Positions 4,548 to 7,185 of a stretch of 36,116 nucleotides of DNA are shown in pieces. Location of the stretch: positions 1 through 36,116 of the forward strand of contig JAQUCQ010000002.1 in assembly GCA_028686145.1 (NCBI GenBank), in the 5' to 3' direction. Within the stretch, counting starts at the first letter, position 1. The number at the start of each line of letters is the position of its first letter. The position numbers were made by a program, and so were the translations under genes. The stretch is from Desulfuromonadaceae bacterium (GTDB lineage Bacteria > Desulfobacterota > Desulfuromonadia > Geobacterales > Pseudopelobacteraceae). A model generated the notes under the pieces. It did not search any database, had not been told where the DNA came from, and was given only the letters and a program-made list of their open reading frames with translations.

Positions 4548-5822
4548 TCAGCATTCTGCGGAAACCATGTTGAAGCGCCACTTGTATGCATCAAGCTGTG
4601 CATCAAGAAGACTGCCCAAAGGGATATTCGTTGCTTCCACAAGTGATTGGACTTCACCAAAGTTAACATGTTCAAGTGTCTCGGCAAGCGCCAGCAGTTC
4701 GCCTATTTCGCCTCCACGATTAAGGAGCGCCTCCGTTACAGCATCGCTCATATTTAATTCCTGTAAGATTTGTTCCATGGATGTCTCAAAAAGGACATCC
4801 ATAAGTGACATGATGCCGGCCAGAAAAGATTCTTCAACCGCTTCGTTGTCTCGGGAGGTGCCATGACGCAACATAGTAAGATACTCCATGAAACGTCCTC
4901 GGACAGCTGCCATCTCAAGAAGCGGGTTATTTATACCCCCGCTCGCAGAGCAGGCGTATATCGCGAGTTGCGTCCAACGACGGAGTTTATCCAACCCAAG
5001 GATCATAATTGCGTGACGGAGATTTCTAATCTTCTCCCGCAAACCAACATTGACAGAGTTTACAAGTTTAATCAGGTTGTAGGACAAGTCAGGATAGGTG
5101 CGAAATACCGTTTCGATATCATCGAGATCCATATTTCCGCGCAGAGATTCAAGCAGTTTGAGCATGCCGATCTTTGAGGTGTCAGGAGCTTTCCTCTTGA
5201 GCACTATTGGACGGGCAAAAAAATAGCCTTGAAAGAGTTCAAAACCCAACTCTCGGCATTCCTCAAACTGTTCCATTGTTTCTACGCATTCTGCAAGGAG
5301 TATGACGGGGAATTGCTTCAGTTTCTGTACCATCTCGCGGCAACCTTCACTGGTCGTCTCAAGCAAATTTATTTTTATTATATCGATAAATTGGTAAAAT
5401 GCGGCATTTGTAGAGGAATACGTATGATCATCAAGGGCCAGTCGAAAGCCTTGAGCTTTAAGAGTGCGTGCCCGGGCCTCATTTATTTCGTTAAAGGGCA
5501 TCGTTTCAAGAAGTTCCAGCACAATATGTTCCCGGGGGAGAAGTTCTATCGTTTCCGACAGCAGCACGTCTTCGGTTATATTTATAAAACCAAGCGTATT
5601 CCCCAACACCTCATGCAGCCCAAAATTAGTAAGGGCACTTGAAATGACACTGGCACTGGCAAAGTTCTGGCTATCATAGGTACTTCTATTGCACTCAGAA
5701 GAACGGAAAAGGAGTTCATAACCCACAATTTCCTGCCTGACATCCAGTATCGGTTGCCTGCCAAGAAAAATTTCCTGCCTGCCTATTTTCTGATTCTGGG
5801 GTTCATTCAACTGTTCATCCAA
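4548..5822 (-). CDS. EAL-HDOD (YuxH-type) c-di-GMP-related signalling protein
   Basis: A 424-residue protein with an N-terminal EAL-type domain (about 15-205) and a C-terminal HDOD domain (about 210-410), the architecture of the YuxH family. EAL landmarks can be followed: E36 in YELLFR (ELL for EAL), N81, E103, D131-D132, K150, E178 in AECVET and Q198 in FQGYFFARP. Most metal-site residues are therefore present. Loop 6, normally DDFGTGYSS, is shortened to DDHTYSS, which usually goes with loss of phosphodiesterase activity, so a binding or scaffold role is more likely. The start appears to be TTG at 5822. An in-frame stop lies 12 bases upstream, no in-frame ATG precedes the domain, and the nearest ribosome site (AAAGGACG) is about 20 bases away. 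The gene is 60 bases downstream of the HD-GYP gene and probably shares its riboswitch-controlled transcript. Confidence 0.88.
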   Translation of the reverse strand: MDEQLNEPQNQKIGRQEIFLGRQPILDVRQEIVGYELLFRSSECNRSTYDSQNFASASVISSALTNFGLHEVLGNTLGFINITEDVLLSETIELLPREHIVLELLETMPFNEINEARARTLKAQGFRLALDDHTYSSTNAAFYQFIDIIKINLLETTSEGCREMVQKLKQFPVILLAECVETMEQFEECRELGFELFQGYFFARPIVLKRKAPDTSKIGMLKLLESLRGNMDLDDIETVFRTYPDLSYNLIKLVNSVNVGLREKIRNLRHAIMILGLDKLRRWTQLAIYACSASGGINNPLLEMAAVRGRFMEYLTMLRHGTSRDNEAVEESFLAGIMSLMDVLFETSMEQILQELNMSDAVTEALLNRGGEIGELLALAETLEHVNFGEVQSLVEATNIPLGSLLDAQLDAYKWRFNMVSAEC

Positions 5823-5882: not shown

Positions 5883-6959
5883 CTATGTATAGTTGTATGC
5901 ACTCGTAGTACGAATTTGCTTAAAATTCGATTCAAGTTCGAGAAAAGCTGCTACGATTTCTGTATCAAACTGTTTTCCGCTTTCTTGGGCTATCATTTCT
6001 TTTACATGTTCATGGTCCAGAGCCTTCCGGTAACAACGATCAGAGCAGAGTGCATCATATACGTCAGCCAGAGCCATTATTCTGGCTGACAGTGGTATAT
6101 TCGTACCCGAAAGCCCATCCGGATACCCTTTTCCATCCCACCGTTCATGATGATAGAGAGCAATCTCGATCCCCATGCCAATAAATGAGTTGTCAGGATA
6201 GCGGTTATACACCGTCTGCATATTACTCCCGCCGATTACGGTGTGGGTTTTCATGATTTCAAACTCTGCTTCGGTAAGTTTACCAGGCTTAAGCAGAACT
6301 GAATCAGGGATTGCCACTTTGCCAATATCGTGCAGAGTCGAGGCATGATAGAGGCAATCAATATAATCAGGAGTGAGTTGCCCGGAATAGGAGCTGTTGG
6401 AGTTAAGATATTCTGCCAACTGACGACAATATTCCTGAACACGCTCAAGATGGGAACCGGTGTCTTCGTCCCGGTTTTCGGCAAGTTTTGCCATGGCAAA
6501 TATTGTCGCGTGCTGGGCTTTTGAAATTTCTAAGATCTTTTTTTCTACAACTTTTTGCAGTTCAATTGTTTCGGCCATTGAACGGAGATTAAGATGCACG
6601 TCAATTCTTGCAAGGACTTCCTGATAATGAAAGGGTTTGGTGATGTAATCAACGCCTCCTGCCTGAAAACCGCGAATGATATCTTCCTTCTGTGCCATGC
6701 CACTTAAGAAGACCACCGGCGCCTTAAGACCTCTTCGCTTTACCTCTCTACAGAGTTCATATCCGTTCATTTTTGGCATTGATATGTCGAGCAGAATCAA
6801 ATCCGGAGGATTTTCTTCCATAAAATTAAGGGCTTGAGTACCATCCTGAAAAGTTTTCGTTTCCCAATTTCTGGCATTAAAAATATTACTTAAGAGTTCA
6901 AGTATTACAGGTTCATCATCAATAATAATAATTTTCTGTTTGGTGATGAGTGCATCCAT
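5883..6959 (-). CDS. Response regulator with HD-GYP domain, predicted c-di-GMP phosphodiesterase
   Basis: A 358-residue two-domain protein. Residues 8-125 are a receiver domain with acidic pair D14-D15, phospho-acceptor D58 in LILLDISMP and K108 in ITKPF. A coiled linker (about 128-150) leads to an HD-GYP domain with ENRDEDTGSH (161-170), LHDIGK with the HD pair at 210-211, and HHERWDGKGYP (270-280), which contains the HD-partner GYP signature. HD-GYP enzymes hydrolyse c-di-GMP to pGpG or GMP, and some cleave 3',3'-cGAMP. The ATG at 6959 is used, with AGAGG upstream. The longer frame to 7007 would run through the terminator hairpin in the leader. No partner histidine kinase is adjacent. Transcription must pass a GEMM-I aptamer and terminator, so expression is expected to follow a cyclic dinucleotide. 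The EAL-HDOD gene follows. Confidence 0.93.
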   Translation of the reverse strand: MDALITKQKIIIIDDEPVILELLSNIFNARNWETKTFQDGTQALNFMEENPPDLILLDISMPKMNGYELCREVKRRGLKAPVVFLSGMAQKEDIIRGFQAGGVDYITKPFHYQEVLARIDVHLNLRSMAETIELQKVVEKKILEISKAQHATIFAMAKLAENRDEDTGSHLERVQEYCRQLAEYLNSNSSYSGQLTPDYIDCLYHASTLHDIGKVAIPDSVLLKPGKLTEAEFEIMKTHTVIGGSNMQTVYNRYPDNSFIGMGIEIALYHHERWDGKGYPDGLSGTNIPLSARIMALADVYDALCSDRCYRKALDHEHVKEMIAQESGKQFDTEIVAAFLELESNFKQIRTTSAYNYT

Positions 6960-6984: not shown

Positions 6985-7028
6985 GTTAAAAAACAAAAAA
7001 CCTGCATTTTTTGTGAAATGGCAGGTTT
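6985..7028 (-). terminator. Intrinsic terminator in the leader of the HD-GYP gene (riboswitch expression platform)
   Basis: On the minus strand AAACCTGC (7028-7021) pairs with GCAGGTTT (7005-6998). The inner bases ATTT and AAAT extend the stem. A U-rich tract TTTTTTGTTTTTT follows to 6985. It lies between the aptamer and the ATG at 6959, the placement expected of a transcription-terminating riboswitch. Confidence 0.88.
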
Positions 7029-7064
7029 ATCGGATATTTTATGTAGTTAATATCCAGTGCATCT

Positions 7065-7142
7065 GTTCGACAACCCCTCTTCCCGTTCTGGGCAGGTAGC
7101 TTTGCGTCATCCGGTTCCCCGAATTTTGCCATTTCGTGATAT
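7065..7142 (-). promoter_or_regulatory. GEMM-I (cyclic-di-GMP class I) riboswitch aptamer
   Basis: The minus-strand RNA reads, in order: UCACGAAAUGGCAAA; a 6-bp hairpin AUUCGG-GGAA-CCGGAU closed by a GNRA tetraloop (7124-7109); the highly conserved GACGCAAAGC (7108-7099); a second, short stem (about 7098-7078); and a 3' strand GGGGUUGUCGA (7077-7067). This matches the Vibrio cholerae Vc2 aptamer element by element: UCACG, GGCAAA, GNRA-capped stem, GACGCAAAGC, GGGGUU..CGA. In Vc2 the tetraloop docks into the second stem and the ligand sits between the two. The G before CAAA, equivalent to G20, is the c-di-GMP type; cGAMP-type GEMM-Ib aptamers have A there. A promoter lies just upstream and a terminator just downstream, before an HD-GYP gene. 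No covariance-model search was run. Confidence 0.87.
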
Positions 7143-7156
7143 ATTTAATTCTGTTA

Positions 7157-7185
7157 TTTATGAACCTCTTGTTTTCTTGTGTCAA
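7157..7185 (-). promoter_or_regulatory. Promoter of the riboswitch-HD-GYP transcript
   Basis: On the minus strand a perfect TTGACA (7185-7180) is followed after exactly 17 bases by CATAAA (7162-7157). Initiation would fall near 7150, only a few bases before the aptamer, as riboswitch geometry requires. An imperfect dyad TTGCACAATTGCAA lies just upstream of the -35 and could bind a regulator, but nothing else supports that. Confidence 0.65.

Follow-up and report, generated by a model that had tools for sequence, protein, structure and literature searches.

A computational analysis of the leader of a gene encoding a REC-HD-GYP protein in a Desulfuromonadaceae bacterium suggests that this RNA acts as a transcriptional OFF riboswitch for c-di-GMP, a reading to which we give a probability of roughly 0.8. 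The leader lies in a 36,116-nt stretch of DNA, hereafter the window (contig JAQUCQ010000002.1 of assembly GCA_028686145.1), from a 3.37-Mb draft genome. In it we find an aptamer, a terminator and an antiterminator whose folding excludes that of the aptamer, together with conservation of these elements and of the gene order. If the ligand, the direction of switching, the activity of the enzyme and the latch are as we infer them, c-di-GMP should repress its own phosphodiesterase and so create positive feedback. The kind of riboswitch is itself already known; what makes this member informative is its predicted OFF sign.

On the minus strand, the segment from 7185 to 6988 has TTGACA-N17-CATAAA first, then a GEMM-I aptamer and a linker hairpin, and last an intrinsic terminator; downstream lie a CAGAGG ribosome site (6974-6969) and the ATG of the REC-HD-GYP gene (Table 1). 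The first-pass annotation had described a promoter, aptamer parts, a terminator and a start codon in this leader, and all are present: the TTGACA/CATAAA boxes, the GGCAAA core, a terminator folded by RNAfold at 7027-6988, and ATG 6959. The promoter scores 10/12 against the consensus, lacking the T at position 6 of its -10 box, and the pair of boxes is conserved in orthologues (L013, L094, L095 and L096) whose flanking sequences differ. A consensus promoter/terminator scan lists neither the leader promoter nor the leader terminator, which under its strict rules is not evidence of absence; the terminator is found by both RNAfold and RNAalifold, and its bulge and long loop are the probable reason that the scan misses it. 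We rejected ATG 7007, which would give the longest open reading frame, as the start of the REC-HD-GYP gene, as it falls inside the terminator and the orthologues share a start at ATG 6959. The gene ends at 5883 and is followed after a 60-nt gap by an EAL-HDOD gene starting at about 5822; within this gap the same strict scan lists no minus-strand terminator.

Table 1. Features of the riboswitch leader and the two genes downstream, in window coordinates
Feature	Position	Strand	Basis
Putative sigma-70 promoter, TTGACA (7185-7180), 17-nt spacer, CATAAA (7162-7157)	7157..7185	-	sequence
c-di-GMP-I (GEMM-I) aptamer	7066..7140	-	RF01051
Antiterminator 5' strand GAAAUGGCA, overlapping the ligand pocket	7127..7135	-	9-bp perfect complement to 7023-7015; conserved, covarying
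Pocket nucleotides G20, G21, C22	7130, 7129, 7128	-	RF01051
GACGCAAAGC in the aptamer	7108-7099	-	sequence
Linker hairpin UGGAUAUU/AAUAUCCG between aptamer and terminator	7031..7056	-	RNAfold
Antiterminator 3' strand UGCCAUUUC, also the terminator 5' arm (switching strand T)	7015..7023	-	folding, conservation
Intrinsic terminator hairpin and U-tract, AACCUGC(C)AUUU...AAAUGCAGGUUUUUUGUUUUUU	6988..7027	-	RNAfold/RNAalifold
Predicted REC-HD-GYP response-regulator phosphodiesterase, 358 aa	5883..6959	-	Pfam Response_reg + HD_5/HD
EAL-HDOD protein, 424 aa, TTG start, second gene of the transcription unit	4548..5822	-	Pfam EAL + HDOD

A search of the minus-strand leader with RF01051 confirmed the proposed GEMM-I aptamer at 53.7 bits (E 6e-08, full model 1-87, gathering score 35 bits), and this is the sole Rfam match in the whole window. 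Its core is present, comprising GGCAAA, a P2 stem capped by GGAA (a GNRA loop), GACGCAAAGC and GGGGUU..CGA. Position G20 is a selectivity factor in this class (PMC9262584), and the substitution G20A in class I GEMM riboswitches permits binding of cGAMP (PMC6274999; PMC7288161). The window aptamer, which includes GGCAAA and GACGCAAA, combines G20 with a G21-C46 pair, and because of this G20, unlike copies with A20, we assign it a pocket of the c-di-GMP type. The pocket supports, without proving, c-di-GMP as the likely ligand. The GEMM-Ib (cGAMP) signature of A20 with C21-G46 (ACUAAACC...ACGGAAAGCC) is not that of the window copy, which has GGCAAA/ACGCAAA instead. We consider it unlikely that 3',3'-cGAMP, alone or along with c-di-GMP, is bound in nature, in which case the loop would link cGAMP to HD-GYP expression: the same genome holds nine cGAMP-type copies and a GGDEF protein (L266, contig C81) with Ser for Asp at the Hypr selectivity position, and two orthologous leaders (L153 and L154) contain A20 (AGCAAACC), but the window pocket groups with the c-di-GMP type and G20 is kept in 33/33 aligned related leaders.

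Stepwise folding of the leader revealed how the c-di-GMP aptamer might be coupled to termination. The strand UGCCAUUUC forms a perfect 9-bp helix with GAAAUGGCA, taking in G20-G21-C22; a match of this score was reached by 10/3000 dinucleotide shuffles of the downstream sequence. In the predicted folds, this antiterminator destroys the ligand pocket and takes one terminator arm, so that it and the folded aptamer exclude each other; the terminator, which contains no nucleotide of the aptamer, is compatible with aptamer folding. We predict an OFF switch because the antiterminator clashes with the folded aptamer while the terminator does not. As the antiterminator is built from the strand that bears the ligand pocket, binding and read-through would be mutually exclusive. 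An ON switch, in which c-di-GMP blocks termination and a high level of the signal induces its own phosphodiesterase in a homeostatic negative loop, would perform the intuitive function, has precedents in the Bacillus class I riboswitches Bc3-5 (PMC4759541), and matches the layout of 7/9 cGAMP-type copies in this genome, with the terminator 3' arm pairing with the aptamer 3' strand. We regard it as improbable for the window leader, as the 3' strand of this aptamer has only a 6-bp match downstream and ligand binding cannot disrupt a terminator that contains no aptamer nucleotides. A different antiterminator, pairing GGGGUU of the P3 3' strand with AACC of the terminator, was also considered and set aside, as the helix with the 5' strand is stronger and is the one that folding predicts.

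We analyzed conservation of this platform by searching 141 genomes of the order at the DNA level with the leader as query, which gave matches in 68, many of them covering the terminator; 52 leaders were read, including the window and orthologue regions, and 33 of these were aligned. Across the nine antiterminator pairs, 94.3% of 297 cells show standard pairing, in comparison to 91.4% in column shuffles (0/500 reach 94.3%) and 38-55% in slid registers. The middle pair (7131 with 7019), which lies outside the pocket, is U-A in the window group and A-U in most others, and the six rows that carry the swap may reflect a single evolutionary event; in six rows (L188, L189, L210, L211, L214 and L231) this pair is mismatched. 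The CC facing G20-G21 is kept in 33/33 and 31/33 leaders despite lying in the terminator internal loop, and its near-invariance there means that the terminator alone does not explain its conservation. When only the terminator 5' arm has emerged, which we take as the decision point, the antiterminator is favoured in 31/33 leaders (median -5.3 kcal/mol; window -5.4 kcal/mol), and once the full-length leader holds the whole terminator, the two states lie close together in energy (median +0.7 kcal/mol; window -3.4 kcal/mol). L211 and L231 are the two leaders that go against the antiterminator at the decision point. L231 is close to C55 (L001), another GEMM-I copy in the source genome, and both of these fit the 5'-strand antiterminator poorly.

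These data also bear on whether the leader has decayed or become constitutive, with an aptamer that has lost its switching function and a terminator that only attenuates. An aptamer and a terminator alone are no proof of switching, and RNAfold predicts a weak P1 in the window aptamer, in a calculation that leaves out aptamer tertiary contacts and so underestimates the stability of the apo-aptamer. Since orthologues retain the aptamer core, the antiterminator strand and the terminator arm even though the sequence between them has diverged, we consider decay very improbable.

The REC-HD-GYP protein matches Pfam HD_5 at 103.5 bits and has the same architecture as HD-GYP phosphodiesterases with REC domains, with LHDIGK (209) and HHERWDGKGYP (270) intact; among solved structures it best matches the c-di-GMP phosphodiesterase 4r8z and the HD-GYP protein 4mcw (PmGH). 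It differs from PmGH at a metal ligand, presumably E185 in the PmGH numbering, which aligns with and is replaced by D166. The EAL-HDOD protein has an EAL domain scoring 55.7 bits, above the cut-off, and shares its architecture with EAL-HDOD proteins of what we take to be the YuxH/CdgJ type, from which it differs in its altered EAL motifs. Catalysis by this protein is doubtful because YELLFR, DDHT and KIN stand at the usual catalytic places of the EAL, DDFG and KID motifs, and it may be a non-catalytic partner. The HD-GYP/EAL-HDOD pair named in the first-pass annotation therefore holds at the level of Pfam domains but does not imply two active phosphodiesterases, as the EAL match is weak and parts of its signature are missing. 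The apparent TTG start of the EAL-HDOD gene (window 5822) follows AAGGA by about 20 nt and is kept in close relatives, with ATG in L152. In a protein search, the closest named relative is a metagenomic 'Proteobacteria bacterium' with a 94% identical protein, followed by a Desulfuromonadaceae bacterium at 52%.

From these elements we propose that, in cells without ligand, the emerging terminator 5' arm would invade the aptamer and pair with its 5' strand GAAAUGGCA, blocking the terminator and allowing RNA polymerase to read into hd-gyp and eal-hdod. Binding of c-di-GMP would lock this strand in the aptamer, the terminator arms would pair, and transcription would end ahead of hd-gyp. HD-GYP enzymes hydrolyse c-di-GMP, so a high level of the signal would shut off its own breakdown; as the predicted OFF switch represses the degrading enzyme, the feedback would be double-negative and hence positive. 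It had been suggested, with the sign of the feedback left open, that the signal controls its own turnover here, and such a loop remains plausible, though not in a homeostatic sense, since the platform predicts OFF switching and thus a latch. Placing a class I switch in control of the enzyme that degrades its ligand closes the loop, and the OFF sign would make it self-reinforcing: feedback would sharpen or latch the high state, with c-di-GMP held high once raised and low once cleared, rather than buffered. The REC domain, through its phosphorylation, would let an external input act on the loop. By analogy, further and even opposite c-di-GMP control could act through the promoter, as promoter-level control can override the class I switches Cdi-1-1 of C. 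difficile and Vc2 of V. cholerae (PMC6200980).

The gene order and the retention of the riboswitch ahead of REC-HD-GYP orthologues support the earlier assignment of the HD-GYP gene to this leader. In near relatives (94%) and at 74% identity (L096/L152) the riboswitch is kept before the REC-HD-GYP gene, and it is also kept at ~55% identity in two genomes of another genus (L106/L153 and L108/L154). In L153 and L154 the platform has been rebuilt, with the P1 3' strand (GAGRGGGC) pairing with a terminator arm (GCCCUU); as this antiterminator excludes the closed aptamer, these leaders are again of the predicted OFF type. The aptamers of L153 (G066:C15) and L154 (G059:C1) combine A20 with a G21-C46 pair, and they may bind cGAMP or both dinucleotides. 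For several other REC-HD-GYP orthologues of 50-60% identity we found no GEMM-I above threshold nearby, so the link between riboswitch and REC-HD-GYP is not universal.

The first gene behind related leaders encodes an HD-GYP protein in eleven of the leaders read, a count that, like those that follow, is a biased frequency, since leaders were selected by similarity to that of the window. EAL-HDOD or EAL genes come first in three genomes (L186, L187 and L197), PilZ genes behind four leaders (L200, L204, L210 and L214, the last by similarity to L210), and other leaders precede GAF or histidine-kinase, FapA, SpoIIE and other genes. That EAL-HDOD stands alone behind such leaders elsewhere supports its membership in the window regulon and the earlier suggestion that control extends to this gene. 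About ten leaders (L188, L191, L192, L193, L195, L198, L201, L209, L219 and L220) precede a ~111-aa protein (SLIDVPKEAEVISQIIEKTLKNGMLVEVYLVKYPRQYESALFINGHYKPGPPxPRP) for which a Pfam scan of four members (L188, L193, L209 and L219) gave no match and which in L192 and L198 lies directly ahead of an HD-GYP gene. In L189 (G007:C65), a related c-di-GMP-type leader stands ahead of an HU-like DNA-binding protein.

Riboswitches for c-di-GMP have mostly been studied on output genes (flagella, adhesins, cytochromes), and in the literature searchable outside subscription we found no description of one on a phosphodiesterase gene. In C. difficile, high c-di-GMP lowers CD630_07570 5.1-fold, but this gene is not listed behind a riboswitch. 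The closest parallel to the window leader is Cd1 of Clostridioides difficile flgB, which likewise has a class I aptamer and transcriptional OFF control (PMC9262584; C. difficile class I OFF, PMC6200980), a terminator that coexists with the folded aptamer and an antiterminator that competes with it (PMC9262584). The Cd1 antiterminator is described as T+A+H, where A is an aptamer-stabilising strand (PMC9262584), whereas in the window T pairs with the pocket-bearing 5' strand; moreover, Cd1 controls flagellar genes and the window leader precedes c-di-GMP turnover genes. The Geobacter GEMM-Ib cGAMP riboswitches (pilM, GSU1761 and pgcA) share the fold and Rfam family of the window copy but have an A20 pocket with a swapped 21-46 pair, and their terminator captures the aptamer 3' strand to give ON switching (PMC9262584), in contrast to the predicted OFF switch of the window.

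Twelve GEMM-I copies above threshold are present in the source genome, which also encodes about 15 HD-GYP genes and has 28 GGDEF matches. Nine of the twelve have a cGAMP-type pocket (ACUAAACC with GGACGGAAAGCC or close variants), and seven of these nine have ON-type terminators whose 3' arm captures the aptamer 3' strand; most cGAMP-type copies precede exported or lipoprotein-like genes. GG(C/U)AAA occurs in the other three (the window copy, C55 and C24), two of which precede phosphodiesterase genes, C55 being ahead of an HD-GYP gene and then a GGDEF-EAL gene. Both c-di-GMP and cGAMP are probably made in this cell, a view we base on the nine cGAMP-type riboswitches and the GGDEF complement, including the Ser-bearing C81 protein. 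Within this one genome, cGAMP copies of ON type can be set against c-di-GMP copies of OFF type that share their fold. We tentatively extend this picture to the bacterial order, with a chance that we judge a little below even, as one fold serving two signals with opposite sign, in which cGAMP copies would be ON switches and pocket-strand c-di-GMP copies would be OFF switches on phosphodiesterases and effectors, forming an RNA latch. Geobacter relatives are rich in GEMM-Ib (PMC8835794; PMC6456294).

Several cGAMP-related loci of the source genome have features of their own. The single-GGDEF protein at C81:634-1104 has GHLVGS for GHxxGD and is a candidate Hypr GMP-AMP cyclase that could feed the nine cGAMP-type riboswitches; its Ser replaces the usual Asp at what we take, from GacA, to be the Hypr selectivity position. 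Tandem cGAMP-type aptamers lie upstream of an L,D-transpeptidase-like lipoprotein (C176:548-823, the two aptamers being identical) and of an exported lipoprotein (C110:4026-4314). At C276:12084-12230, a GEMM-I match of 36 bits has a large P3 insertion (147 nt in all) and is followed by an ON-type terminator.
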